A stretch of 64,000 nt of DNA from an uncultured Fibrobacterota bacterium (GTDB taxonomy: Bacteria; Fibrobacterota; Fibrobacteria; Fibrobacterales; Fibrobacteraceae), in NCBI GenBank assembly GCA_903876665.1, contig CAIRAY010000034.1, positions 1 through 64,000 on the forward strand, read 5' to 3'. Position 1 is the first letter of the stretch, and the number at the start of each line of letters is the position of its first letter. The translations under genes and the position numbers were made by a program. This document shows positions 17,951 to 54,113 of this stretch, one piece after another. The notes below the pieces were generated by a model. It saw nothing but the letters and a program-made list of their open reading frames with translations, was not told the origin of the DNA and ran no database searches.

Positions 17951-18853
17951 TTAGCCGACCAGGTCCGCCCGCAGGGACGACAATTGCTCGAATTCCTCCC
18001 GTAGCTCTACCAGCAGGGGGCGAATTCCTTCGATGGTCGGCGACATTCCCCATCCCTCCAGGACGTCTGCGAGTTCTTTGGAAATCAAGGGAGGGGCCGG
18101 ATTTCCACCGTTTCCTGCCTTGAGCGTGCGGCTCAAAAGATCGGCAAGCTGAATGATGGCCACCAAATTCTGCGACTCGGCAGGGGCCTTCCCCAGATCG
18201 TGGTGAAAGGCCATGGCGTCACACAAATTTTTGGGGAGTTTCCAGCGAAGAGCCAACCAGGACCCAATTTCTCCGTGATCGGTATCAAACAAATCCCGCT
18301 CCGCTTCATATAAATTGCGCCCCTCTCTCTGTGCAGTCGCCAGCGCCTCGGCAAATTCCTCGGGTAAATACTGAATCAGAATCACCTTGCCAATATCATG
18401 CAAAAGCCCTGCGGTAAATGCTTCGGAAGCCATTTGGGGGTTCCAGCCTTTGGCAATGGTCCGGGCAGCGAGCCCGACCGCGGAGCTGTGGTCCCAAAAG
18501 CCGGAGATGTCAAAGCCTTCGAGCCCCTTGGCGGAGCGGAATGCATTGATGACAGAAACGCTCAGGGAAATTTCGCGCACCATGTCGAACCCAAGCATCA
18601 CCACGGCCTGGTGCACGGAAGTAATTTCCCGTCCATGTCCGTAATAAGCCGAATTCGACAATTTGAGCAAACGTGCTGTGATCACTTGATCCTGAGCCAC
18701 AAACTTCGCCAGGTTGGAGGCGTTGGTATTGGGGTTGTCCACTAGGTCCAAAAGCTTAGCAGCCAAGGTTGGCAATGTTGGCAAATTCAACAAGGACTGC
18801 GAGATTCGACGCAAATGCGCGGCGCGGGACTGTGGAGTTGCAAGGGTCGCCAT
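17951..18853 (-). CDS. HDOD domain signalling protein
   Basis: A 300-residue cytosolic protein with an HDOD domain over most of its length ([55 protein letters not shown]). A retained HD-type stretch, [14 protein letters not shown], is followed later by FHHDLG. HDOD proteins are non-enzymatic HD relatives that act in signalling, often with c-di-GMP or flagellar control. The gene lies 8 bp after a small flagellar-operon gene and sits downstream of fliA, suggesting a role in motility regulation. No good ribosome binding site is seen, so translation may depend on coupling. Confidence 0.85.
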
Positions 18854-36202: not shown

Positions 36203-36994
36203 CTATCCGTTTACTGACAATAAATCTTTGAGGTAGTAGGAATCTTCGCCCACCTGAATTTTGGATCCGGTAGCGCCATAGCGCAGACCAGAAACAGTTC
36301 CCTCAGTGTAAGTGTGTCCCACAACTTTCAATTTGGTTGCATCTAAAATTTCTACGGTGTAGCTACCCTTGGGCGCTGGAGCACCGTCATCGGTAAGGCC
36401 ATCCCAGGAAAATTCGCCTTCTACCTGGCCACTGGGCATTTTGAGGCTTCGGTAGGCAATTACATCCCCTGCGGCATTTTTTACGGCAGCATTTGCCGAA
36501 GAAACCCCTTCATCGACCTGCACATCAAATGCCACGTCGCTTCCGGAATACTTGATTTCAGAATCCGCCACCCGGACAATTTTTCCCAATAAACTCGTGG
36601 CAGAAGCGTTCACCGTGCTTGCGCTGTTCAGCGTCTGCGTAGTCATGAAACTATTCATGTTGTCCGCAAGGGACGTCATGGAGGTTTCCACATTCTTATT
36701 GGTTTCCAAGGAGGAGAATTGGGCAAGCTGGGCCACAAATTCCGTATCGGCCTTGGGGCTCAAGGGGTCCTGGAAGCGGAGCTGAGTCACCAGGAGGTTC
36801 AAAAAGTCGTCCTTTCCCAAGGCATTTGCATCCTTGAAAAGACTGGTATCCCCTTCCGAAACAACCTTGCTGTCTCCAGACACCGTGGAAGTTACAACCC
36901 GGCCGCTGGAGGATGTATTGGGATTGGTCAGATCCGAGAGGTCGTACGCCTTGACGCTCTTCCCTAATTCAACTGTATTCCACATGCCAGCCAT
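36203..36994 (-). CDS. flgD: Flagellar hook cap protein FlgD
   Basis: A 263-residue hook scaffolding protein that caps the growing hook. ATG 36994 is chosen because it follows AAGGAG at about 5 nt. The conserved N-terminal part reads [39 protein letters not shown]. The C-terminal half contains the FlgD Tudor/Ig-like region ([46 protein letters not shown]). It is followed by flgE and preceded by fliK. Confidence 0.95.
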
Positions 36995-37003
36995 AAACAC
37001 TCC

Positions 37004-38707
37004 TTAGGCAATTACTTCCATGGTGTTGTATCCGAGTCTCCGTCCAGTGTCGACATCAGGTACATCCACAGTAACATCAGCAAATGTCATGCCACGCCCA
37101 AAATGACGGTTATGGAAGTTTCTCCTGGCGTTGGCAGCATCCTTGTCACCATTCTGGTTTTCGGGGCGGCCAGAATCCACCTGGACCTCCATGCGATCCA
37201 GTTTTACATTCTGCTGTTCCAAGGAGTCCCGGAGTTTTTGAATCGAGGACTCCATGACCTTCTTGACATTTTCATCATCCACCACCATGTGAATGCGAAT
37301 TTCACCGGGACGCGAGGTCACTTCTAGCTCTACATGGCCAAGCGAAGGCGGATCCAGGCGCAAGGTGGTGCGGGATTCTCCGTTCTGCACCATGATCTGG
37401 ATGCGATGGGAAACCTGTCGGACTGTCTGATGCCGATCCATGTTCTCAAGCATCCTGGAAGAAGTCGCCTTTGCCGCCGCGATCTCACCCGGGCTTTTCA
37501 GGGGTTCCCCGGTCTTGATACTTGAATCGGTCCCGACCGGCGCTTCCGCCACTTGAGCCATTTTATTGACAGACTCATTTACTGCAGGCTTCACCGAATC
37601 GGAGGCCTGGGCAACCGGGTCAGAATTCACCGTGGATTTTGAGTGTTTCGTGGCCAGATCATGATTTGAAAGCGGATCCTGCGAATCTTTTTTTTGGACA
37701 TCCCCAACGGGTGGCTGGGATTCTGAATTCTTTTGCTCCTGCTGGGGCTTGGAATTGCCCTCCTGGCCCGCATCGGACCGGGCCTGGTTTTCCGCCACCG
37801 TGGCCACAATGATATTCTCTTTCGAGTCACCCTCAGGGCTTCCCTTTCCGTCCCGGACCAGGGCTGGATCCTGTGCCTCTTTTTTGTCTGCAAGGCCAGA
37901 TTCCCTTGACTTTCCTGCGATCTGGGACGCAATGACAGGTGCAACAGCCTGCCCTTCTGGCGATGGCATGTTGGATGTAACCTGAGCTACGGAATTGGGG
38001 TCGGATTTCGATAAAGATTCCGCATTGTCCTTTTCCGTGGCCTGGGAAAATTCGTCAAATGTTTTGGCTGACGTATGGGTGTTCTGAATCCCGGAAGAAG
38101 CCACCTCGGCGAAGCTCCCTGAGGCGGTTTTCACCCCAGCATCCAAAACATTTTCTGCCTGGGGTTGGGCGAAAATGGATTGGGGCAGCTGGGGAATTTC
38201 CTTCTGGATTTTTTCCACGAGCTTCTGCGCATCGGAAACAACCCCGCTCGCTTCAACCGCCGTGGCTCCAAGCATTTCGGTCAATTTTTGCGAAAGCTGT
38301 TGCAGGGCTAGGTCCAGTTCCTGAGGCGAAAGGGATTGCCAATCTTCAAAATTCACTGGGGTTTCGGCAAGCTCCGGGCTTTGTAGAAGCTGCTGCAATT
38401 GTCCCATCAGAGCCATGAGGTCATCGGATGGCTGATTTTGCATGTCTGATTTATCGAACTCGGGAAATATGGCACCCTGGCTTTGCAGAATCGCCTTGAA
38501 GGCCTCAATCTCTTTGGGAGAAAGCATGTCCAGGGGATTGACCTTGGATTGTGGCTCTCCCGACAACGGAAGCGCGGACTCATCAACCGCAACCGTACCG
38601 GTCACAAATTGTTGGAACAGGGCTGCGAAACCACCCGCATCTCCCACAGGCTGCTGTGTTGCGGATTCTACGCCTGGCGTACTAGGAATTGCCTGAATCG
38701 GATCCAT
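37004..38707 (-). CDS. fliK: Hook-length control protein FliK-like
   Basis: A 567-residue protein. ATG 38707 lies 5 nt after GAGAGG. The N-terminal two thirds are low-complexity, rich in S, Q, A, K and P, as expected for the secreted molecular ruler. The C-terminal domain (VSHRIQIMVQNGESRTTLRLDPPSLGHVELEVTSRPGEIRIHMVVDDENVKKVMESSIQKLRDSLEQQNVKLDRMEVQVDSG) is the Flg_hook domain that triggers FlhB switching. It lies directly before flgD and flgE, the expected context. Confidence 0.9.
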   Translation of the reverse strand: MDPIQAIPSTPGVESATQQPVGDAGGFAALFQQFVTGTVAVDESALPLSGEPQSKVNPLDMLSPKEIEAFKAILQSQGAIFPEFDKSDMQNQPSDDLMALMGQLQQLLQSPELAETPVNFEDWQSLSPQELDLALQQLSQKLTEMLGATAVEASGVVSDAQKLVEKIQKEIPQLPQSIFAQPQAENVLDAGVKTASGSFAEVASSGIQNTHTSAKTFDEFSQATEKDNAESLSKSDPNSVAQVTSNMPSPEGQAVAPVIASQIAGKSRESGLADKKEAQDPALVRDGKGSPEGDSKENIIVATVAENQARSDAGQEGNSKPQQEQKNSESQPPVGDVQKKDSQDPLSNHDLATKHSKSTVNSDPVAQASDSVKPAVNESVNKMAQVAEAPVGTDSSIKTGEPLKSPGEIAAAKATSSRMLENMDRHQTVRQVSHRIQIMVQNGESRTTLRLDPPSLGHVELEVTSRPGEIRIHMVVDDENVKKVMESSIQKLRDSLEQQNVKLDRMEVQVDSGRPENQNGDKDAANARRNFHNRHFGRGMTFADVTVDVPDVDTGRRLGYNTMEVIA

Positions 38708-38716
38708 ATTCACCTC

Positions 38717-39313
38717 TCAGAGTCCTTGTTTTTTCCAGCCAAGAATTTGGGTAATGGCGGCCGCTCTCTTGGAGTCCATGGCGCCAATAGCTGCCATGAT
38801 TTTGGCCTGGGACCGGGTCTCGGGGACCCGCTTCAGAATTTTGGCCACAGTCAGATCATCCAGGTTGAGCAAAATCGGGGCGGACTCGACGGGCTTCATG
38901 GCGCCATAAATTAGAGCCAATTCCTCAATCCGCTGATCGGAAAGCTGCTTGGACTGATCCACCATTTCTTCGATGCGCTTGCGGTCGGCACCCATGGCTT
39001 CCTTCAAACGGGCATTTTCTGCCTTCATGCTTTCCATGCGGGCAATTTCTTCCTGCAATTTGGCCTGACTGGCTGCCAGCTCGCCTTCCTTCTTCTTGTT
39101 GGCCTCAAATAGCCGACTCTGTTCCAAATCATGTTGATCTTGGGCAGGGTTCATCTTCTCTAGGTAGCCTAAGAGCTTGGACCGGACGGCGGAGTCTTCT
39201 CCGAACTCCAAATGCGCGGTCCCCGTGCCCAGAAGCACCGCAAAAAAGATAACGGGAAACAACAGTACCGAGGCAAGGCCTACTCCAATAATGTCCGTAA
39301 TCTTCAAGTTCAT
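38717..39313 (-). CDS. MotE/FlbB-like flagellar coiled-coil protein
   Basis: A 198-residue protein. ATG 39313 follows GGAG at 8 nt; the TTG at 39337 would lie on the predicted transcription start. It has one membrane helix (about residues 4-28, DIIGVGLASVLLFPVIFFAVLL), a long coiled coil (about 60-135) and a C-terminal MgtE-N-like domain (LNLDDLTVAKILKRVPETRSQAKIMAAIGAMDSKRAAAITQIL). This is the layout of MotE/FlbB proteins, which shape the stator or collar region of the motor in several phyla. It is the first gene after a sigma-54 promoter and heads fliK-flgD-flgE. Confidence 0.75.
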   Translation of the reverse strand: MNLKITDIIGVGLASVLLFPVIFFAVLLGTGTAHLEFGEDSAVRSKLLGYLEKMNPAQDQHDLEQSRLFEANKKKEGELAASQAKLQEEIARMESMKAENARLKEAMGADRKRIEEMVDQSKQLSDQRIEELALIYGAMKPVESAPILLNLDDLTVAKILKRVPETRSQAKIMAAIGAMDSKRAAAITQILGWKKQGL

Positions 39314-39347
39314 GGGATAATCTCCAAAATCATTCAAACATACTATC

Positions 39348-39363
39348 GCAAGGATCGTGCCAA
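39348..39363 (-). promoter_or_regulatory. Sigma-54 promoter upstream of motE-fliK-flgD-flgE
   Basis: The minus-strand sequence TTGGCACGATCCTTGC is a consensus -24/-12 element with GG and GC separated by exactly ten bases. The predicted start is near 39336, about 23 nt before the motE-like ATG. Confidence 0.85.
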
Positions 39364-39831: not shown

Positions 39832-42489
39832 TTATCGGATGTCAGCCTGCAAATCCGCCAGAAGAGCCAAAATATCGGAGTCTTGCGGAAAAAGCTTGGC
39901 TCCAGTCCGAAGGGCTTCTAAAGCCTGGGGGACGTCATTCAGCAAAATATTGACCTGACCCAGGGAGAGCAACACGATGGCGCTTTCTTCCAAAAGGCGG
40001 GCAAAAGAAAGGCTCGCCCGACATTCTTTATATTGCTCATGCTCAAACAACAAGCCTGCAAGCTTAAGGCCTGCCATGGTTTCTCCCTTGCCCACGGCGA
40101 TCCCCATTCGCAGAATTTCCATCGCGAGCGGACGAATCCCCTTTTCCATCCAATAATGCCCCAACATTTTGCAGGCCCGGATTCGGATCTGCTGAAAATC
40201 AACGGGCATTAGGGTGGGCTTTTCCTGGAAATGAATCAGACAGCTGTAGTCCGCAGCGACCAAATCTAGGTTTCCCTGAGCTTCGTTCAACTGGGCCCTC
40301 AAAAACAAGGCATTGGGCTGGGTCGGATTACGAAGAAGGTATTCGTTTATCATGGCGAGCGCTTCTTCCCGGAACCCCAGGTTGCCACGGCATTCGGCAA
40401 GTTTCACCGGCAGGATCTGCAAAATGTGCTTATCTTCCCCCGCCCGTTCCGCCTGGGCCATGGACAAGCTGTACCAATGCCTCGCCTCGTCGAATTCCCC
40501 CAGATCGAGGTAGGCGTTGCCCATGGCAAAAAACTTCATGGCATTGACAGAACCCGGGGACCGCTCAATATCGTCCTGCATCAATTCAAGATTTCGCCGT
40601 TGCTTGAATTTAACCGTTTCTGGATCCGTATAGCCCGTATGGACAACGCGAATATCCATGAATTCCACCGGCATTCCGAGCGCCTGCAATGAGGGCATTA
40701 CCTGCTCATGTACGCGCCCCACAAAGCGAATCTCCGGCTGGTTCGGGAAGAGGCGGATCTGATTGAACACGGCTCCAGTAAGGCCCGCATCCTGACTATT
40801 CTTGATCAGGAATCCATAGGCTTTTTTTGCCTTTGCGGTCTGCACCAAGTTCTTGATTCTTTCCAAATCCTCCGGCAACAAGACATCATCGGCATCGAGC
40901 CAAAGAATCCACTGGCCCTGGGATTCTTCGAGGGAACGATTGCGGGCGGCAGAAAAATCCTGGATCCAGGGGAAATGAAAAACCCGGGCCCCCGCCTGGG
41001 TAGCGATCTCCACGGTCCGGTCGGTAGAACCTGTATCCACAATAACCAGATCATCCCATAGACCACGGATGGAATCCAGACAGGCCTTCAGGTGAGTTTC
41101 TTCATTCTTTACGATCATGGCCACGGATAGGAGAGGTCGTTTTGATTCTTCAGGGGATTCGCCAAATGCCGTTGCCATGCGCTCGCGGACCCGGTTCATC
41201 TGAACTGTATTTCCAATCTTCTCGTAGGCAAGCATCAGCGCAAGCCAAGCATCGCGGCTCGCTTTAGGGTTGGTTGCCACGGCCCTTTCCAAATGCAAAA
41301 TGGCTGCAGAGGCGTCTCCCAAGGCGAGCGAGGCCTTGCCTAGGAAAATCGAAGACTCCACCACCACGGGATAAGCCTCATGGAACTGGGTGGCCCACTG
41401 CAAAACCAGGCTCGGATTTTGTTTGATTGTGGCGATATCGCAAAGAAATTTAAAACTGTACATCCGCATCACATCGTAATGGGACACCTGGGATCCAGAA
41501 CTCCGTTCCAGAGTAAGAATCTTTTCAAATAAAGGAGCTGCATCATCGTATTTCTTCAGAATATACAGGGACTCAGCCTTGTAGAAAAGAGGATCGATCC
41601 GGGTGGGAATTCTGGCGATGGCTTTTTCCAGCCATTCAATGGCGTTTGGGTAATCCGCCTTCAGCTGATAGGACTTCCCAATGGTGATGAAGGCCTCGTT
41701 GTAGGCTTCGGTATTGATATTCTCCGCACCAGGAATGTCAAAAATTTCTTTGTATGCTGCGATGGCTTCGTCGTGCCGTCCCAAAATTTGAAAAGCATCT
41801 CCCAATTGACAGGAGACCACCGGATCTTTTCCCCGGTCAGGCTCGGTCAGGATCAGTTCCAGATTACGCTCCGACTTGGATTTGCGCAAGTCTTCGGACT
41901 CATAACCCGTATGATGAATAATGGTGTCCACATAATAGACATGCAGACCCACAGCCGCAATACCATAAATAATTTGCTCATGGATACGCCGTTCAAAACG
42001 GATGCGCGGATGATTGGGGAACATGCGAATTTGCAAAAAGCGTGCGCCAATCGGCAATCCCCCACTTTGTGTGTTAATCACCTGAAAGCCAAAGGCGCGA
42101 TCCAGTGTGGCTCGCTTCAGTTTGTTGAAATTCGCCACCTGTTCCGGAGGAACCACATCGTCCGCATCCATCCAAAGACACCAAGCGCAGGTCGCTGCGG
42201 CAAGGCTCAGGTTGCGCGAATAGCTAAAATCACGTCTCCACTCGGAATGAATCACCTTGACTTTGGGGAGCCGTGCCAGAATCTCCAAGGTCCGGTCCGT
42301 AGAACCCGTATCATTGACGATGATCTCATCCGCGAAGGGAAGAAAACTTAAAATGGCCTTTTCAATGTTTGCTTCCTCGTTCTTCACGATCATGCAGACG
42401 GAAAGCGTATTCTTCAATCCCTTGCAGGGCAAAAAACCTTTGATGGTTCCCAAACGCTTGGGGATTTCACTGGGAGGAATACTAGACAT
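39832..42489 (-). CDS. Tandem GT2 glycosyltransferase with TPR repeats
   Basis: An 885-residue cytosolic protein built as GT2-TPR-GT2-TPR. The first GT2 (about 28-230) has LSVCMIVKNEEANIEKAILSFLPFADEIIVNDTGSTDRT and a DADD metal site at 108-111. The second (about 454-690) repeats the same pattern, MIVKNEETHLKACLDSIRGLWDDLVIVDTGSTDRT with WLDADD. TPR-like helices follow each domain. This subfamily (SunS-like/TPR-GT2) glycosylates proteins or peptides in known cases. ATG 42489 overlaps the preceding gene by 8 bp and lies 10 nt after GAGGAG. It is the third and last glycosyltransferase-operon gene. Flagellin is a plausible acceptor given the location. Confidence 0.85.
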   Translation of the reverse strand: MSSIPPSEIPKRLGTIKGFLPCKGLKNTLSVCMIVKNEEANIEKAILSFLPFADEIIVNDTGSTDRTLEILARLPKVKVIHSEWRRDFSYSRNLSLAAATCAWCLWMDADDVVPPEQVANFNKLKRATLDRAFGFQVINTQSGGLPIGARFLQIRMFPNHPRIRFERRIHEQIIYGIAAVGLHVYYVDTIIHHTGYESEDLRKSKSERNLELILTEPDRGKDPVVSCQLGDAFQILGRHDEAIAAYKEIFDIPGAENINTEAYNEAFITIGKSYQLKADYPNAIEWLEKAIARIPTRIDPLFYKAESLYILKKYDDAAPLFEKILTLERSSGSQVSHYDVMRMYSFKFLCDIATIKQNPSLVLQWATQFHEAYPVVVESSIFLGKASLALGDASAAILHLERAVATNPKASRDAWLALMLAYEKIGNTVQMNRVRERMATAFGESPEESKRPLLSVAMIVKNEETHLKACLDSIRGLWDDLVIVDTGSTDRTVEIATQAGARVFHFPWIQDFSAARNRSLEESQGQWILWLDADDVLLPEDLERIKNLVQTAKAKKAYGFLIKNSQDAGLTGAVFNQIRLFPNQPEIRFVGRVHEQVMPSLQALGMPVEFMDIRVVHTGYTDPETVKFKQRRNLELMQDDIERSPGSVNAMKFFAMGNAYLDLGEFDEARHWYSLSMAQAERAGEDKHILQILPVKLAECRGNLGFREEALAMINEYLLRNPTQPNALFLRAQLNEAQGNLDLVAADYSCLIHFQEKPTLMPVDFQQIRIRACKMLGHYWMEKGIRPLAMEILRMGIAVGKGETMAGLKLAGLLFEHEQYKECRASLSFARLLEESAIVLLSLGQVNILLNDVPQALEALRTGAKLFPQDSDILALLADLQADIR

Positions 42490-43510
42490 CGATTTCAATC
42501 TCCTCTACACCAGGAACCCGGCCCTTGGCCTTGGCGAGCATGACTAAAGTTTCGGGAACAGTGCCCGCATGGGGAGCTACATCGGCCAGATTCTGGAAAA
42601 AGTCCAGACGAGTTCCATCCAGCAATATCGCCATGCGGAAACTGTTCCAGGCATCTCGATGCTTTTTCCGATAGAAATGCAATACGCCCTGCAAATTACA
42701 GGTCTCGGCACTGGCTTCTCCAGATTGAAACAGTTTATCCAAAATGAGTCCGGCTTCATCAAGCCGCACATCATCCAGCAATTCCTCGATCTCGGCATGA
42801 ACGACATTCAGATCCGTATTCTGGGGAGCAACGCCCTGGAGTGCCTCCAAAGTAGTCTGATGCTTCAGTGCAACAACCCACGATTTGATGAAATGTTGTT
42901 TGCGCTGGCTGGGATCCTGGGGCAGATAAACCGAGCAATCCCACCCATTGATGGCTGGCCACTTGGACATCTCGGGATTGTGATACATGGGATCTACGTC
43001 TTCCTGTACATCGATCAGTTCACATCCAAACTCAGACAGAGAGGATTTCAAGGCCTCCACCCCAAGACTTGCTCCATGGGGAAAATCTTGGGGCTGAGGC
43101 CAAATTTCGTGACCACGACGGAAAATGGTATCTCCGAAATATTCCGGATTCTGGAGGCGAATGCGAATCGTCCCACTCGGCGAAAGTAATGCGACAACCC
43201 GACGCATCAAATGCGTATCCGCAGTGACGGTGCTGCCAGCCTGATTGCATACCAAAGCATCGTATTTCATTCCATCGCAGGGCCAGGAATCCGCCCAAGC
43301 GGATACGCTGATGCATTTTCCGGGAGATGCAAATCCCTCGGAGAGCCCAATGGCAAAGGCAAGAGAGGTCGTCTCCCAGCCAAGTCCGTCATAAAAACGG
43401 CACTCCTCCGCACTTCCTTGAATCACGAGCAATCGGTTCTCCCTGGCCGAGCGTGGTCCAAAGGAATACCACAAGGACTTTTTATTCAGATAGGCCGCGC
43501 GCAAGTCCAT
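42482..43510 (-). CDS. Methyltransferase-like protein with TPR tail
   Basis: A 342-residue cytosolic protein. The first 215 residues have a methyltransferase-like layout (YDALVCNQAGSTVTADTHLMRRVVALLSPSGTIRIRLQNPEYFGDTI, then HGASLGVEALKSSLSEFGCELIDVQ), but the usual glycine-rich SAM-binding loop is not evident. It could therefore be inactive or divergent. The last 110 residues are TPR-like (AEIEELLDDVRLDEAGLILDKLFQSGEASAETCNLQGVLHFYRKKHRDAWNSFRMAILLD). Start and stop overlap its glycosyltransferase neighbours (TAATG at 43510; 8 bp at 42482-42489), so all three are translationally coupled and probably form one modifying complex. Confidence 0.7.
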   Translation of the reverse strand: MDLRAAYLNKKSLWYSFGPRSARENRLLVIQGSAEECRFYDGLGWETTSLAFAIGLSEGFASPGKCISVSAWADSWPCDGMKYDALVCNQAGSTVTADTHLMRRVVALLSPSGTIRIRLQNPEYFGDTIFRRGHEIWPQPQDFPHGASLGVEALKSSLSEFGCELIDVQEDVDPMYHNPEMSKWPAINGWDCSVYLPQDPSQRKQHFIKSWVVALKHQTTLEALQGVAPQNTDLNVVHAEIEELLDDVRLDEAGLILDKLFQSGEASAETCNLQGVLHFYRKKHRDAWNSFRMAILLDGTRLDFFQNLADVAPHAGTVPETLVMLAKAKGRVPGVEEIEIDV

Positions 43511-46500
43511 TAGTTTTCCTCCAGAATTCGAGCGACCGCACTGAGGCTCGGATCAACCGCAAGTGCATTCTGCAAGGCAGCCAGACCCTCCGCCTGCCGT
43601 CCAAGCTTAACACAGACGTCCCAATAATTCACCAGGGTATCTTGATCCAAGGGCGCAAGTTCCAAGGCAGCACGGAAGATCTCCCAGGCGTCCTCATGCT
43701 GTCCCCGATAAAAGGCCACAATCCCTACCCCATTGAGGCAATCCACATTCTCTGGATAAGCCCGCAAAAGGTCGGTGAAAAGGATCACAGCGGAGTCAAT
43801 TTTCTGCTCTTCGAGCAAACGATGACCTGTGCGGATTTGTTCTTCGAGCTTGGCTTGCTCGGCATCCTTACGGAAATACATTTGCAACCGTTCGGGAGTC
43901 AAATGACCCGAAATGTCTTTGCGAATCTGAGCCAGCTCCCCTGCCCCAGGATTTGCGGCTTCGGCCCGCTCAAGCCAAGGAATGAATTCGTCCATGCGGC
44001 GCGAAAGGAAGGCGCAATCATAAAGGTTGACCACCGCATCTAGGTACCACGGATTCAAATCAATGGCCTGGGCGAACAAATCAAAAGCGGCAGACATTTC
44101 CTGGGCGTACCACTTCAAAAGTCCCAAATTATTGAGGGCCCGGTAATTGTCAGGCTGTTTGGCCACAATACCTTCGAGCATTTCGCCGGCCTTCTCGGAC
44201 ATGCCCTCGCGAATCAGATGTTCTGCAGCAATATTGACTTCGCGGGATTCGATCACGGAATTTGCATCGAACCTCCCCGATTTTTGCCGGGACTTTAAAT
44301 CTTGCAGGGCCATGCGGACTTCGTAGAGACTGGGCTCTAGGCCAAGGGCATGTTCCATGACCGAAATCACTTTCTGAGGAATCCCCAAACGCAGCAGAGC
44401 GTCGTAATAATTAAGGATGGCATCGGAATCACAAGGATTGGATTTGAGTGCCGCCTCAAACCAGCGTACAGCCTCATCGATGACTCCCTGTTGGAACTTC
44501 ACGATTCCCAGCAAATTGCAAACCTGGAAGTCTTCACCCTTCCGTTGCCGCACATCCAGGAGAACCGTCAAGGCCTCTGCGTACTGCTTGGCCTCGAGGA
44601 ATGCTTCCACCTTGGTAACCCAATCCACATGGGAGAAAGAGTCCACCCCAGCCTCCTGGGAAAAGGCTTGAAGCCCGGGGTACTTTCGACGTAAATAATC
44701 CAGCACTCCCGTAATGCTTTCGGCACCGAAATCATTCGCAAGGAGATCCACAATCACTTGGGCCACATCATTCTGGGCAGGATCGAGTTCCAGGGAGCGA
44801 CAAAAAAGGGCAAAAGCGTCCTTGGCCTGGTGAAGAGCCCGCAAGCATTTTCCTAGACCAAAATTCGCCCGGGCATCGCGCGGATTGGCGTCTACCAAGG
44901 CCTGGAAGGCCTTTTGTGCATCGACAATATTACCCGCATTGAGCCAGGAAAAACCATCCACAAGGACACCCGCGGGCTTAGGAGCAAGCACTGGGGTTCC
45001 CGCAAGGAATGCGATTCCGCTTTTTCGGCCTGCAGACCACTTGCGGTCAAATTTCCCCATATTTTCTGTCATCTGCTTGTTCCAGTCGATGCCAGAATCC
45101 TTGAAGCTGACGCTGCCAAAATGAAAGAGAAAACTATCGTCAGCCACGAGGAGAGTGTGCCCCGAATATCGAATCCGACAAGAATAGTCATCATCTTCGA
45201 AATTCCCAAATCCATATTGCTCATCAAAGGGCCCAATTCTCTCTACGACCCGGCGTGGCATCAGCATGCAGAAGCCTTTGAGCCTAGGGAATTCCCATGC
45301 CGAAAGCTCGTTGGCCTCCTGAATTTTTGCGGAAAGCCCGGGAATTTCGTCTTCGGATTTCCATTCAAAACCCTCGACCAACTGTGGACCAGCGATGCGA
45401 TTGGAGCGAGGAACAACCATGCCCGACTCGGGATGGTTCTCCGCACAGCGCACTAGGTTTTCCAGGAAATTTGGACCGGGGATGGTGTCGTTGTTCAGAA
45501 TCAGGACATAATCGCCCGTGGCAAGCTTCATTCCCTGGTTCCAACCGGGAGCGACGCCCAAATTCTTGGGATTATGAATGACCTTGGCGCCGGGGATCGA
45601 ATCAAAATAGGCCGCAGTGCCGTCCTTCGATCCATTATTGACAAGAATCAACTCGTATTCCTGGCGGCAATACTTCTGCAAATTCTCGATACATTTACGG
45701 GTATACTCGACCTGATTCAGAGCCAGCAGGACAATGGAAACTTTTTTGGAAAGATAATGTTTGGATTGGCAGGGCTCGGCAACCAGAAGAATCCGTGAAG
45801 AAGTTTCCAGGAGAACTTCATCAGGCAAAAGAGCATCGATCCGGAGCTGGGTATTGGCGTAACGGGGCGCGAGGGGAACCTGCGGAAAATCGGACCAATG
45901 TTCCATGGAGGAAATCCGGAACCCGCCTTGTTGGACTTCGCGACGCAGGTCCAGCGGACTAATGGCGCGCTCTGGCACCAGTGCACCAGGACGTTGGAAA
46001 TGAACATTGTCAAAAAGAAAGAGGACTTTTTTGAGTCCATTGCCACGCAATGCTTTGATGAGATGCGAAAGCCCGGGAAGCTCCAGGGGATCAATGCGCC
46101 AAACCAGACAATCGCACGCACTGAGTTGGATATAGTTGTTTTCGAGGTCAAGGAGTTGCCCCTTGCCCATCACGCCTACGCTTCGGTAACCGGAAAGATG
46201 CTTCTGCAATTGACCGGGCAGCTCCTCGCCAATTTTTGCAGAAGACGATTGGGTTGCGAACTCCAAAAGCCTCGCCGAGGCCTTGGCAATGGTGACCGTC
46301 CAGGACATGGATTGGGCAACCCAAGAAGCATGAAAGGGAATCTGCAAATTTTCGGGAGCGGTTTTGCCCAGAGAAGTCACCAACCAACGGTTTGGCAACG
46401 AGCTGGGCTCCTCCAAAAGATTCAGGGCAAACTCGCGCACATCGGAAGGCACCGTACTTTTTCCCGTTCCATCAAGAATGGGCCCAGTGCCCGATTCGAA

Positions 46501-47625
46501 CTGCCCGAGCAGACCCGGATGAATGGCCACACCGGCCTCGACCAGAACCAAACGACATTCACCAAACCAGCGTTGCAATTTTTCAAAAAGGGACTTCCAA
46601 GGAGTGCCCACGCGGATAGTCCAAACATCGACGGCAGAATCCAGACCAGGGACTCCACTTCCATTCAAATCCAGAATCAAGATATCGCTCGCAGGGATCT
46701 GCGCCTCGACAAATGCACCTAAACTAAATTGACAAGCATCGTGTTTCGCTTCGGCCCCACGCTTAACCAGAATACAATATTTGGTGGACATGGAAACCTC
46801 TTGGGTGCTCCGTGGGGCGTCGTCTACCACGGGGGTGAACCAATCAACGCCCCAAAGCTCCATGGCTGTTGGGATTAAGGACAACTGACCGAAATGTTGC
46901 ACCAGTTTGTTGGAAAAATGTACCAAGGAACGGTGATGCATGGCCTCAACCACAGGTCTAGAGCCTGCTTCAAAACTTTTGTGCCAGGCGTGAAAAACGA
47001 AAGCATCGATGGAGACGGCAAACAGCCCTCCCTTCTGCGCGATGCGAAAGCACAGGTCCAAGTCATCGAAACCAAGTACCAACTGGGGATCAAGGCCACC
47101 CATGGAAGAAAAAATTGGGGTGCGGATTAGCAGGCAAAAACCGGTCAGCAGTTTTGTCTTGGCTTCGTGCCCGCCAAACTTTTGAGAAAGAAAATCAGCA
47201 ACTTCTTCGCGGTTTTCGGGTACGCTCGATTTTAGTGGATCCGGAAGCCAATGCCGGGCACTTTGCACTCCACCAGCGTTGTTGCTCACGGGACCCACTG
47301 CAGCCAAATGGGACCGGCGTTCAAGTGTCGCAAGCATTCGGCTCAGGCTGGATTTACAGAGAAGCGTGTCGGGATTCAAAAGCAACAAAAAATCGCCCGT
47401 GGCACAACGTGCGGCCTGGTTCACCGCAGCGGAGAATCCGATGTTTTCCGAATTGGCCTGGACCTGGACTTGGGGGTATTGACGGAGAACCGCGACCGTA
47501 GCATCGCTGGATGCATTATCGACAACGATGATCTCTGTTTCGGCGTCACAGGCAAGCACCGAATTAACGCATTGGGCAATGTAGCCTTCCGACTGGAAGG
47601 TTACGATCAATACAGAAGTTTTCAC
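43510..47625 (-). CDS. Giant glycosyltransferase with two GT2 domains and C-terminal TPR array
   Basis: A 1371-residue cytosolic protein. The first GT2 domain covers about residues 1-245: SVLIVTFQSEGYIAQCVNSVL, VVDNASSD and a NPDT metal motif at 84-87. Residues about 280-620 are a divergent middle part with a segment like a decayed methyltransferase. The second GT2 covers about 627-870: VSIVLLALNQVEYTRKCIENL, LVNNGSKDGT, NNDT at 711-714 and GFGNFEDDDYSCRIR. A long TPR array fills about 885-1371. It starts 18 bp after the MerR gene and ends in TAATG with the methyltransferase-like gene. The TPR array suggests a protein acceptor or complex scaffold. Flagellin modification is inferred from context and promoter type. 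Confidence 0.85.
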   Translation of the reverse strand: MKTSVLIVTFQSEGYIAQCVNSVLACDAETEIIVVDNASSDATVAVLRQYPQVQVQANSENIGFSAAVNQAARCATGDFLLLLNPDTLLCKSSLSRMLATLERRSHLAAVGPVSNNAGGVQSARHWLPDPLKSSVPENREEVADFLSQKFGGHEAKTKLLTGFCLLIRTPIFSSMGGLDPQLVLGFDDLDLCFRIAQKGGLFAVSIDAFVFHAWHKSFEAGSRPVVEAMHHRSLVHFSNKLVQHFGQLSLIPTAMELWGVDWFTPVVDDAPRSTQEVSMSTKYCILVKRGAEAKHDACQFSLGAFVEAQIPASDILILDLNGSGVPGLDSAVDVWTIRVGTPWKSLFEKLQRWFGECRLVLVEAGVAIHPGLLGQFESGTGPILDGTGKSTVPSDVREFALNLLEEPSSLPNRWLVTSLGKTAPENLQIPFHASWVAQSMSWTVTIAKASARLLEFATQSSSAKIGEELPGQLQKHLSGYRSVGVMGKGQLLDLENNYIQLSACDCLVWRIDPLELPGLSHLIKALRGNGLKKVLFLFDNVHFQRPGALVPERAISPLDLRREVQQGGFRISSMEHWSDFPQVPLAPRYANTQLRIDALLPDEVLLETSSRILLVAEPCQSKHYLSKKVSIVLLALNQVEYTRKCIENLQKYCRQEYELILVNNGSKDGTAAYFDSIPGAKVIHNPKNLGVAPGWNQGMKLATGDYVLILNNDTIPGPNFLENLVRCAENHPESGMVVPRSNRIAGPQLVEGFEWKSEDEIPGLSAKIQEANELSAWEFPRLKGFCMLMPRRVVERIGPFDEQYGFGNFEDDDYSCRIRYSGHTLLVADDSFLFHFGSVSFKDSGIDWNKQMTENMGKFDRKWSAGRKSGIAFLAGTPVLAPKPAGVLVDGFSWLNAGNIVDAQKAFQALVDANPRDARANFGLGKCLRALHQAKDAFALFCRSLELDPAQNDVAQVIVDLLANDFGAESITGVLDYLRRKYPGLQAFSQEAGVDSFSHVDWVTKVEAFLEAKQYAEALTVLLDVRQRKGEDFQVCNLLGIVKFQQGVIDEAVRWFEAALKSNPCDSDAILNYYDALLRLGIPQKVISVMEHALGLEPSLYEVRMALQDLKSRQKSGRFDANSVIESREVNIAAEHLIREGMSEKAGEMLEGIVAKQPDNYRALNNLGLLKWYAQEMSAAFDLFAQAIDLNPWYLDAVVNLYDCAFLSRRMDEFIPWLERAEAANPGAGELAQIRKDISGHLTPERLQMYFRKDAEQAKLEEQIRTGHRLLEEQKIDSAVILFTDLLRAYPENVDCLNGVGIVAFYRGQHEDAWEIFRAALELAPLDQDTLVNYWDVCVKLGRQAEGLAALQNALAVDPSLSAVARILEEN

Positions 47626-48112: not shown

Positions 48113-48346
48113 TTACTTGGGACGCTTGAACAATTGGGCTAGCGAACCCATGTCCACATCGGCCTTGGGCACGGCGGCCTGGTTTTCTTCCTTGATCCGC
48201 TGGTAGACTTCTTCGCGATAAATGGACACGGAACGGGGAGCATCGATGCCAATTTTGATATTGGAACCATCGATATCGATAATGGTAATTTTGACCTCTT
48301 CGCCAATGCGGAGGGACTCGCCAGGTTTGCGGGTGAGAACTAACAT
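48113..48346 (-). CDS. csrA: Carbon storage regulator CsrA
   Basis: A 77-residue RNA-binding translational regulator: MLVLTRKPGESLRIGEEVKITIIDIDGSNIKIGIDAPRSVSIYREEVYQRI is the canonical core with the conserved RNA-contact residues L4 and R6 and the IYREEVY stretch. A Q/A/K tail follows. It binds GGA in hairpin loops, commonly over ribosome binding sites. The gene starts right after fliW (stop at 48348), whose last codons contain its GGAGGAG. The likely main target is the flagellin leader at 49767-49788. Confidence 0.97.
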   Translation of the reverse strand: MLVLTRKPGESLRIGEEVKITIIDIDGSNIKIGIDAPRSVSIYREEVYQRIKEENQAAVPKADVDMGSLAQLFKRPK

Positions 48347-48347
48347 A

Positions 48348-48782
48348 TTAGGTCTCCTCCGGCATCATTTTTTCACGAATGGAATAACGCCCGTCATCCA
48401 AAATAATCTGCTTGCCTAGCTTGCTTTTGATATTTACCAGCACCGGACCTGCCATATTGACGGTCGAAAGCCTGTGGTTGGGATTGAGGGTTACAATCAC
48501 AAAGAGCATCAAGTCATCTTGATTCTGGATCTTCAGGTCGGCAATTTGCTCTTTGCCCATTTTGGGGGCATAATCGGGCCGGAAAAGCAAAGGGTTCACC
48601 ATCAAAAAACGGATCTGGACATTTTCCACAGAATACAGCCAAACAAAAGGCTCAAACTCCGGATTCATCGCCAATAAAAAATTTCGCAGTCCTTCGAAAC
48701 CTGGAATGCCAGACTCGAAACGGATGATGTCTGGGTCGGTGTATTCCAGACCATGTAAAACTTTTTTTTGTAATTCAGGCAT
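48348..48782 (-). CDS. fliW: Flagellar assembly factor FliW
   Basis: A 144-residue protein that binds CsrA to relieve repression of flagellin translation and is itself titrated by unexported flagellin. Signatures are IIRFESGIPGFEGLRNFLL, FVWLYSVENVQIRFLMVNP and VIVTLNPNHRLSTVNMAGPVLVNIKSKLGKQIIL. AAGGAAC precedes ATG 48782. The order fliW-csrA next to flagellin is the classical three-part circuit. Confidence 0.96.
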   Translation of the reverse strand: MPELQKKVLHGLEYTDPDIIRFESGIPGFEGLRNFLLAMNPEFEPFVWLYSVENVQIRFLMVNPLLFRPDYAPKMGKEQIADLKIQNQDDLMLFVIVTLNPNHRLSTVNMAGPVLVNIKSKLGKQIILDDGRYSIREKMMPEET

Positions 48783-48833: not shown

Positions 48834-48875
48834 ACAAAAAAAAAGACCGGGCCAGCAGGCAACTGGACCCGGTCT
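48834..48875 (-). terminator. Rho-independent terminator of the flagellin gene
   Basis: On the minus strand AGACCGGG (48875-48868) pairs with CCCGGTCT (48851-48844), extended inward by CCAG/CTGG with one bulge, and is followed by ten T residues. It isolates the flagellin transcript from fliW-csrA. Confidence 0.9.
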
Positions 48876-48903
48876 CACGGAACGGAGGAAAAACAAAAAT
48901 TTA

Positions 48904-49752
48904 CTAGGCGTCAAAAAGTGACAGGACCGACTTCGGAAGACCATTGGCCTGTCCAAGCATCGCTGTCGACGATTGACTCAAAATCTGGAAGCGCACCATT
49001 TCCGTGGAAAGCTTGGCAAAGTCCGCATCACGGATCACCGACTCTGCGGCCTGGGTATTATTTTCCTGAATTCCAAGGCTGGTGATGGCAGAGTCCAGGC
49101 GATTCATCAAAGCACCCAGATTCGAACGAGTTTGATTCACCGCAACAATGGCGGAATCCACTTCTGTCAAGGCAGTATCCACACCGGGACGAGCCAAAAT
49201 GCTCGAGGTAATCAACCCCAGCGCACCCGCTGTAACTGAACCAATACTGACCTGGATTGTATCAATTCCAACGGCGTTGTTCACGCCAATATGCAATACC
49301 GAAGGACCGCCCACGGAACCAAAGGAATTCACGGCCCCACTCAACAAAGGCATGCCATTGTATTGAGTGGAAGTGGCGATGCGGTCCAATTCCACTTTAA
49401 GACTCTGATATTCCTGATCCATAAACGCACGGTCATTGGACGTGAACGGATCATTGGAAGCCTGCACGCTCAGCTCCCGCATGCGTTGGAGAATATTCGA
49501 AACTTCATCCATGGCACCTTCGGCAATTTGCAGCAAGGATGTGGCATCCTGCGCATTGCGGGTCACCATGCTTGCACCCCGAATCTGGGTGCGCAATTGT
49601 TCGGAAACGGACAGATTCGCAGGGTCATCCGACGCGCGATTGATTCGAAACCCCGTACTGAGTTTGGTCATTACATCACCCAAGTTCCGGTCATTTTGCC
49701 GGAGGGACATCTGGGAGACCAGCGATGCAATATTATTGTTAATCCGTGTCAT
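48904..49752 (-). CDS. fliC: Flagellin
   Basis: The filament subunit, 282 residues. Conserved D0/D1 ends are present: MTRINNNIASLVSQMSLRQNDRNLGDVMTKLSTGFRINRASDDPANLSVSEQLRTQIRG at the N-terminus and FAKLSTEMVRFQILSQSSTAMLGQANGLPKSVLSLFDA at the C-terminus. The central variable domain is short, as in small flagellins. The gene is monocistronic, with a sigma-54 promoter and a GGA-loop hairpin in its leader. Nearby fliW and csrA should control its translation, and the large glycosyltransferases 1.3-10 kb away may modify it. Confidence 0.97.
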   Translation of the reverse strand: MTRINNNIASLVSQMSLRQNDRNLGDVMTKLSTGFRINRASDDPANLSVSEQLRTQIRGASMVTRNAQDATSLLQIAEGAMDEVSNILQRMRELSVQASNDPFTSNDRAFMDQEYQSLKVELDRIATSTQYNGMPLLSGAVNSFGSVGGPSVLHIGVNNAVGIDTIQVSIGSVTAGALGLITSSILARPGVDTALTEVDSAIVAVNQTRSNLGALMNRLDSAITSLGIQENNTQAAESVIRDADFAKLSTEMVRFQILSQSSTAMLGQANGLPKSVLSLFDA

Positions 49753-49766
49753 AGACTCCGTTCCAT

Positions 49767-49788
49767 GTTCAGGTTTCCTTGCCTAAAC
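49767..49788 (-). promoter_or_regulatory. Predicted CsrA-binding hairpin in the flagellin leader
   Basis: On the minus strand GTTTAGG (49788-49782) pairs with CCTGAAC (49773-49767, one G-U pair) and exposes the loop CAAGGAAA. GGA in a hairpin loop is the core CsrA signature. Two further GGA motifs follow at about 49762 and 49757, the latter in the GGAG just before ATG 49752. Confidence 0.6.
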
Positions 49789-54071: not shown

Positions 54072-54097
54072 GGCGAATTCCTCTTGCAGGGACTTAC

Positions 54098-54113
54098 GCA
54101 AGAGTCGTGCCAA
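54098..54113 (-). promoter_or_regulatory. Sigma-54 promoter of the flgJ-flgN-flgK-flgL unit
   Basis: The minus-strand sequence TTGGCACGACTCTTGC is a consensus -24/-12 element. The predicted start is near 54086, 15 nt before the chosen flgJ ATG. The remaining gap up to clpB (54129-54376) shows no gene. Confidence 0.85.

Follow-up and report, generated by a model that had tools for sequence, protein, structure and literature searches.

Upstream of a flagellin gene in an uncultured Fibrobacterota bacterium, with fliW and csrA as neighbours, runs a short leader in which GGA motifs recur. The question raised by this locus is whether the leader is a target of the regulator CsrA and, if so, whether FliW would relieve the repression. 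The flagellin-FliW-CsrA switch has been worked out in Firmicutes and Campylobacter; in the titles and abstract openings of the open-licence papers listed we found no description of CsrA control in Fibrobacterota. We analysed a 64 000-nt stretch of DNA (contig CAIRAY010000034.1, positions 1 to 64 000; hereafter the window) together with flagellin leaders from across the phylum. We consider it likely that the window's flagellin leader is a two-hairpin CsrA operator relieved by FliW.

Flagellin, FliW and CsrA in the window

The flagellin gene (282 aa; 48904-49752, minus strand) matches Pfam Flagellin_N (1.9e-43) and Flagellin_C (3.1e-24). It is followed on the same strand by fliW (144 aa; 48348-48782; PF02623, 1.3e-36), which encodes the CsrA antagonist, and one base further on by csrA (77 aa; 48113-48346; PF02599, 1.4e-25). 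The Pfam matches confirm the gene neighbourhood given in an initial annotation of this DNA. The genome has only one match to FliW and only one to CsrA. A probable intrinsic terminator (48836-48876, minus strand), recognised from sequence and fold as a GC-rich stem followed by nine U residues, lies between flagellin and fliW; a consensus terminator scan did not return a terminator between these two genes. With this terminator in place, expression of fliW and csrA would need read-through or another promoter.

A profile built from the window's FliW and 10 relatives matched the FliW chain of entry 5dmb (7.2e-34), which also contains a CsrA chain. The nearest named record to this FliW (60%) was 'Fibrobacter sp. 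isolate AS10tlH2TH_155', the next best being Fibrobacteres, Chitinivibrionales and Chitinispirillales. In an alignment, the window's CsrA has L4, R6, R44, I51 and N55, of which we take R6 to be an RNA-binding residue. L4 and R44 are named as RNA-binding residues in excerpts of a published account (PMC7652899). I51 and N55 correspond to V51 and N55 of C. jejuni CsrA, positions that contact FliW and that excerpts of PMC7829508 describe as the two residues needed for FliW binding; N55 is identical across all the FliW species compared there and position 51 is Val or Ile. FliW is thus present, and CsrA has the RNA-contact residues, the FliW-contact residues and the C-terminal extension.

Two large repeat-bearing glycosyltransferase-like proteins are encoded between two flagellar gene blocks (39832-42498 and 43510-47625, minus strand). 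Judged by eye from their translations, they possibly act in flagellin glycosylation.

Two hairpins in the flagellin leader

The minus strand being the sense strand, the leader is the reverse complement of the span first annotated; 49789-49750 reads AGUUUAGGCAAGGAAACCUGAACAUGGAACGGAGUCUAUG. The 7-bp hairpin that had been placed at its beginning exists: SL1 (49788-49767, minus strand; 22 nt) has seven contiguous pairs, GUUUAGG/CCUGAAC. Its loop had been given as AAGGAAA; AAGGA is indeed inside the loop, with GGA at 49778-49776, but the loop is actually the 8-nt CAAGGAAA. Two further GGAs had been listed, the last at the start region. Both are there, the three leader GGAs beginning at 49778, 49764 and 49759 (-26, -12 and -7), but they had been listed without the second hairpin that holds them. 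This hairpin, SL2 (49766-49751, minus strand), has the 5-bp form AUGGA-ACGGAG-UCUAU. Its hexaloop carries GGAG (GGA at 49759-49757), its 5' arm contains the middle GGA (49764-49762), and its 3' arm pairs the first two bases of the AUG, the A of which is at 49752. The SL1 GGA and the SL2-loop GGA are separated by 16 nt. Read 5' to 3', the elements are a sigma-54-like site, SL1, SL2 and flagellin, with fliW and csrA downstream.

The SL1 loop GGA, the middle GGA and the last GGA lie 23, 9 and 4 nt from the ATG, respectively, and GGAG lies 3 nt from it, the spacing originally reported. The first GGA had also been suggested as the ribosome-binding site. For the SL1 loop GGA this can be rejected because 23 nt is too far from the ATG; the middle GGA could have this role. 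The ribosome site could be either the middle or the last GGA, and the GGAG in the SL2 loop is probably part of it.

Relative to an ANGGAN hexaloop closed by C-G, the form of the phylum consensus described below, the two hairpins depart in different places. SL1 keeps the consensus register except at the innermost pair, where C and A face each other unpaired and give the 8-nt loop. SL2 has a hexaloop, ACGGAG, closed by A-U, and counts six contiguous pairs in the phylum register if one extra pair is included. Extra loop bases can reduce the affinity of RsmE (excerpts of PMC7652899), so that by analogy SL1, with its 8-nt loop, may be a weaker CsrA site.

Single-sequence support for the hairpins beyond chance is modest. 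The 40-nt stretch folds with z = -2.34 relative to 200 shuffles, of which 3 were as good; extending it by 30, 60 or 100 nt into the coding sequence brings z to -0.54, -0.28 and +0.21, respectively, and stability is no longer beyond the shuffles. SL1 was present in 4/4 folding contexts and SL2 in 2/4, SL2 also folding with some of the predicted transcription starts. Among the 3031 GGAs of the window, 11 have at least seven contiguous symmetric-register pairs (register as defined below), SL1 included. As the single-sequence strength is modest, the case rests on the relatives.

Promoter and transcription start

A sigma-54-like promoter, TGGCATGAACTTTGCG (-24/-12), lies at 49812-49797 on the minus strand, with one mismatch to TGGCAYN5TTGCW. 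Taking the C of its GC as -12, transcription is predicted to start at about 49786 and to produce a 34-nt leader, in line with the ~35 nt first proposed. The promoter and start are the weakest point of the proposed anatomy. Transcription is predicted to begin on base 3 of the SL1 stem, leaving five pairs; SL1 tolerates starts from 6 nt upstream to 1 nt downstream of this base and is gone at 2 nt downstream. Were transcription to begin further downstream, or from another promoter, SL1 would be absent from the message and would be a chance hairpin in the DNA. The number of sigma-54 consensus matches in the window (two mismatches or fewer) is not above chance, which favours such an explanation. 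However, L003, L004, L005, L007-L010 and others have comparable sites upstream of flagellin, the predicted leaders there measuring 27-77 nt, and the position of GGA relative to the predicted start recurs. Among the matches listed, 41/138 leaders, that of L003 included, have a sigma-54 site with no more than one mismatch upstream. The first GGA is at +8/+9 in 16 of these 41 (+9 in the window), although many of the 16 are closely related and not all have the GGA in a loop (e.g. L007). The RpoN DNA-binding domain has one match in the window's genome. We regard a chance hairpin as very unlikely, and retain the two-hairpin operator.

Other sigma-54-like sites (at most one mismatch, minus strand) were seen near flagellar genes: at 54097-54112, near the start of a flgJ-like frame; at 39347-39362, immediately before the frame 38717-39337; and at 37079-37094, within a fliK-like frame and ahead of a flgD-like frame.

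GGA-loop hairpins in Fibrobacterota flagellin leaders

We compared 138 distinct flagellin leaders from Fibrobacterota, drawn from the matches listed. Twelve loci without a recognised N-terminus were excluded. By eye, L018, L032, L058 (two genes) and L096 among these have GGA in a predicted loop, L019 has it in a wide 11-nt loop, and L020 and L022 are without a GGA loop; L100, L119, L122, L127 and L129 yielded nothing in this inspection.

Each GGA was scored in a symmetric register, in which NGGA plus one base on each side is unpaired and four contiguous pairs flank it. In the 138 leaders among the matches listed, 61/272 GGAs starting at about -82 to -24 have the four contiguous flanking pairs. 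The same test gave 162/7870 for the other triplets pooled, 6/109 for the next best (TTC) and 2/156 for GGAs ~205-290 nt upstream. Sliding the register by one reduced the 61 to 20, and other registers gave 7 or fewer. SL1 is not among the 61 because its closing C and A cannot pair and its loop is 8 nt. Minimum-energy folding places a GGA upstream of -22 within a hairpin loop in 106/138 leaders (among the matches listed); 20 dinucleotide-shuffled sets gave 17-36 and a far-upstream control 7/136. A GGA within the last 22 nt is in a loop in 30/138 leaders (among the matches listed), against 1-10 in the shuffles.

Covariation was measured on 75 stretches from 70 leaders, picked by the letters AAGGA and not by pairing. 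The covariation score was 0.403, compared to a shuffled mean of 0.164 (0/500 as high) and a maximum of 0.175 in slid registers, and 62.6% of cells were paired versus 45.5%. Changes on both sides were found in 7/8 pairs; this equals the shuffled mean of 7.0 and so is no evidence.

Stable 5' hairpins are common on abundant messages, and the hairpins could be stabilising or ribosome-standby structures unrelated to CsrA, rich in GGA merely through the purine-rich ribosome-binding sequence. In favour of this reading, AGG (71/265) and GAA (59/260) are also frequent in leader loops. But GGA is the commonest loop triplet (117/314), and AGG and GAA overlap it within AAGGAA. The pairing test singles out GGA (22%, the next triplet reaching 6%); its effect is upstream of the ribosome site, in a single register and accompanied by stem covariation. 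We consider a role unrelated to CsrA the least likely of the explanations weighed here, and continue with the CsrA operator.

The consensus of the 75 AAGGA stretches, GCAAGGAUGC, is a hexaloop closed by C-G (one row of the alignment was shifted by MAFFT), with the C-G closing pair in 48/74 rows. SELEX with CsrA yielded the consensus RUACARGGAUGU, for the most part with a loop of six nucleotides and with AC paired to GU, and structures of RsmE have an ANGGAN loop (excerpts of PMC7652899). Judged by its letters and pairing, the phylum consensus, a hexaloop with C-G closure, is this SELEX/RsmE form.

The start-proximal hairpin is also represented among the relatives. The GGA nearest the start has at least four contiguous pairs, in the same register, in 31/132 leaders; 1000 re-deals of the 3' halves gave 11 such leaders on average and never more than 21. 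A ribosome-site hairpin with at least five pairs is found in 17/132 leaders, including that of the window, whose six pairs rank among the 13 best of the 132.

Amongst the class relatives with a flagellin gene next to fliW, the pairing scan found at least seven pairs at a GGA loop in L004, L005, L007, L008, L009 and L088; in L010 it found the short ACA-AGGA-UGU. By minimum-energy fold, L004, L005, L007 and L009 have an upstream GGA loop while L008, L010 and L088 have none. Among the genomes compared, the window's own is the single representative of its genus. The nearest available ortholog, L003 (65% identical), shares AGGAACGGAG ahead of the start and keeps AUAGGAACGGAG and only the two start-proximal GGAs, without SL1. 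The lack of SL1 in L003, and the 8-nt loop of the window's SL1, would fit a narrower explanation: that only the SL2 region with its two GGAs binds CsrA, SL1 being a 5'-stabilising hairpin in which GGA is incidental here. Yet a GGA near the predicted 5' end recurs at +8/+9 in 16 of the 41 sigma-54 leaders (many of them closely related). Moreover, the window's genome has four flagellin genes at the 1e-40 threshold, and in the three others as well as in the gene studied here the minimum-energy fold puts an upstream GGA into a hairpin loop. We judge SL2-only binding to be improbable and favour an operator in which both hairpins take part.

Some leaders of the phylum depart from the pattern. By minimum-energy fold, L021, L024, L026 and L029 (genus g6) and L126 (g21) have no upstream GGA loop; their genomes carry FliW and CsrA. 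The four g6 leaders have the ribosome-site GGA in a loop, and L130 has a weak upstream GGA loop. We also observed that L021, L024, L025, L026, L029 and L030 (g6, g9) are sigma-54 leaders with a conserved hairpin around UUUUGAUUG, the loop of which is without GGA. In several g6/g9 leaders the ribosome-site GGA is in a loop instead, e.g. ACAAA-GGAG-UUUGU in L024.

Outside Fibrobacterota, loci were inspected by eye only. Several Paenibacillus, Domibacillus and Clostridia leaders have hairpins like CCACAUGGAUGUGG, an example of the same hairpin form in Paenibacillus/Domibacillus loci with fliW (L165, L169, L173, L175, L176). Their likeness suggests an operator common to Firmicutes and Fibrobacterota. 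Loci from KSB1, Synergistaceae and Spirochaetales had FlgL-like proteins or none.

A long multi-GGA leader outside the window's class

In families outside the window's class, 21 flagellin leaders (L033, L034, L036-L040, L042, L043, L045, L047-L050, L071, L072, L080, L090, L092, L102 and L111) share a different form: ~96 nt of conserved sequence with 4-7 GGAs. Nineteen of the 21 genes lie beside fliW. These leaders average 5.9 GGAs, compared to a shuffled mean of 3.35 and a highest value of 4.19 in 200 shuffled sets. The predicted fold has three helices: GC-AnGGAA-GC at the 5' terminus, then GGUC-AGGAn-GACC, then a stem formed by GCAG and CUGC. A possible fourth hairpin, UGC-AnGGAA-GCA, has a 5' arm that overlaps the 3' arm of the third stem, and so the third and fourth may, in this model, be alternatives. 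Covariation is weak (both-sides changes in 2/12 pairs), since the sequence hardly varies.

A model of this long leader (R1) found 22 genomes at E <= 3.2e-12, with one copy each. All 22 strong copies touch a flagellin start and 20 adjoin fliW; that of G087 is not in the alignment. Weak matches elsewhere (E 7e-4 to 0.0099) numbered nine in nine genomes, eight of them without a strong match; strict filters on the search may have dropped weak copies. Two of these, G061:C80 and G082:C63, reach exactly to the start of a flagellin gene linked to fliW and are probably diverged true copies; the other seven may be chance. The R1 model gave no match at E 0.01 in the window's genome. Within the window itself, matches at 36992-37150 (E 0.0045), 36800-36885 (E 0.16) and 18539-18648 (E 1.4) were rejected as chance; the first two are mostly inside the open frames 37004-38713 and 36203-37000, which by eye look like fliK and flgD.

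We also considered known RNA families. No Rfam family matched the window at its gathering score, and Rfam 15 at E <= 1 found nothing at the leaders of eight loci covering both leader forms (four of them long). The only hit in these eight loci, to S10-Clostridia (E 0.045), was below threshold and lay outside the leader of L002. A stand-alone trans RNA of the CsrB/RsmZ type was rejected for the window, where the start codon of flagellin is continuous with the hairpins, and for the long form, where, in a search whose strict filters may have missed weak copies, each of the 22 genomes has its one strong R1 copy touching a flagellin start.

As in the CsrB/RsmZ sponge RNAs (excerpts of PMC7652899), GGA is repeated in hairpin loops, and the long leaders reach 4-7 GGAs; unlike those separate small RNAs, the hairpins here are part of the flagellin message. 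We raise, tentatively, the possibility that the fliW-linked flagellin mRNA is itself a CsrA sponge: the long leader would hold several CsrA dimers, and the level of flagellin mRNA would set CsrA activity for the other GGA-hairpin flagellin genes, the window having the short, two-hairpin form.

Co-occurrence of flagellin, FliW and CsrA

Among 167 Fibrobacterota genomes, 56 carry a flagellin (E <= 1e-40), 56 a FliW and 55 a CsrA; the three occur together in 50. No genome of the 167 had CsrA without FliW. Six have flagellin at this threshold without FliW, and six have FliW without such a flagellin, at least four of the latter having weaker flagellin matches. In 55/55 CsrA genomes the distance between a csrA and a fliW match is 9-27 nt, and a second CsrA away from fliW occurs only once among the 167 (G070:C51:2793-2948). 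A flagellin gene is within 400 nt of fliW in 32 of the 56 FliW genomes. A contig search with a FliW alignment as query gave 68 loci; the same search with a single FliW as query gave no match.

Genus g2, which is probably Fibrobacter, has no genome among the flagellin, FliW or CsrA positives; loss of flagella in Fibrobacteraceae is described in excerpts of PMC4704652. In two genomes, G056 (94% complete) and G058 (91% complete), flagellin is present while FliW and a convincing CsrA are absent. Among the leaders of this pair, with uncertain start codons, L020 is without a GGA loop and L019 has its GGA in the wide loop mentioned above, so that the two genomes speak neither for nor against the operator. 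The G026 assembly (78% complete) is without FliW and CsrA, yet its leader L023 retains a strong GGA hairpin.

Proposed mechanism and relation to known systems

The hairpins occur in predicted folds and are conserved with covariation in the phylum, and the partner proteins are intact and co-occur. For the window, we propose that sigma-54 RNA polymerase would start transcription at ~49786, which would put SL1 right at the 5' terminus of the mRNA. One site of a CsrA dimer would sit on the GGA of SL1 and the other on the GGA of SL2 beside the start codon, and CsrA in this bound state would block ribosome binding. Export of flagellin would free FliW, which would bind CsrA at its C-terminal helix and release the message. 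Flagellin would then be translated only during filament building.

B. subtilis hag belongs to a different phylum, was compared by description and not by leader sequence, and presumably has a promoter different from that of the window's flagellin. The likeness is in the two CsrA sites, one over the Shine-Dalgarno sequence, in the adjoining fliW and csrA, and in the antagonism by FliW (excerpts of PMC7652899 and PMC6529632).

The C. jejuni flaA leader, as described in excerpts of PMC4894983, has two ANGGA stem-loops tested by mutation, gel shift and footprint. Its second stem-loop is over the ribosome site, compensatory changes are seen among Campylobacter species, and mutation of GGA lowers binding. 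What flaA shares with the window's gene is a short leader (45 nt there, ~34 nt here), two ANGGA-loop hairpins of which the second covers the ribosome site, antagonism by FliW and a flagellin as the target. It differs in having a sigma-28 promoter, where the window has a sigma-54-like one, in that both its loops are hexaloops while SL1 has 8 nt, and in a GGA spacing of 21 nt rather than 16 nt; the present case is in another phylum and is predicted from sequence. The initial suggestion that the layout is that of CsrA sites thus gains support, at the level of sequence, from the covarying GGA-loop hairpins, the CsrA contact residues, the pairing of fliW with csrA and the match to flaA.

The mechanism is already known, and its application to the window is very probably right. 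The novelty lies in the phylum, in how strong the comparative evidence is, in SL2 and in the long leader with its many GGAs. The RNA half of the switch, with covarying stems, is now seen in one more phylum, which makes the operator recognisable from sequence and testable in bacteria that are mostly uncultured. Were the sponge reading true, CsrA in these organisms would serve flagellin control specifically, would come and go with flagella, and would not be a carbon-storage regulator. That csrA adjoins fliW in every CsrA genome seen in the phylum is relevant to the question of how old the role of CsrA in flagellin control is.
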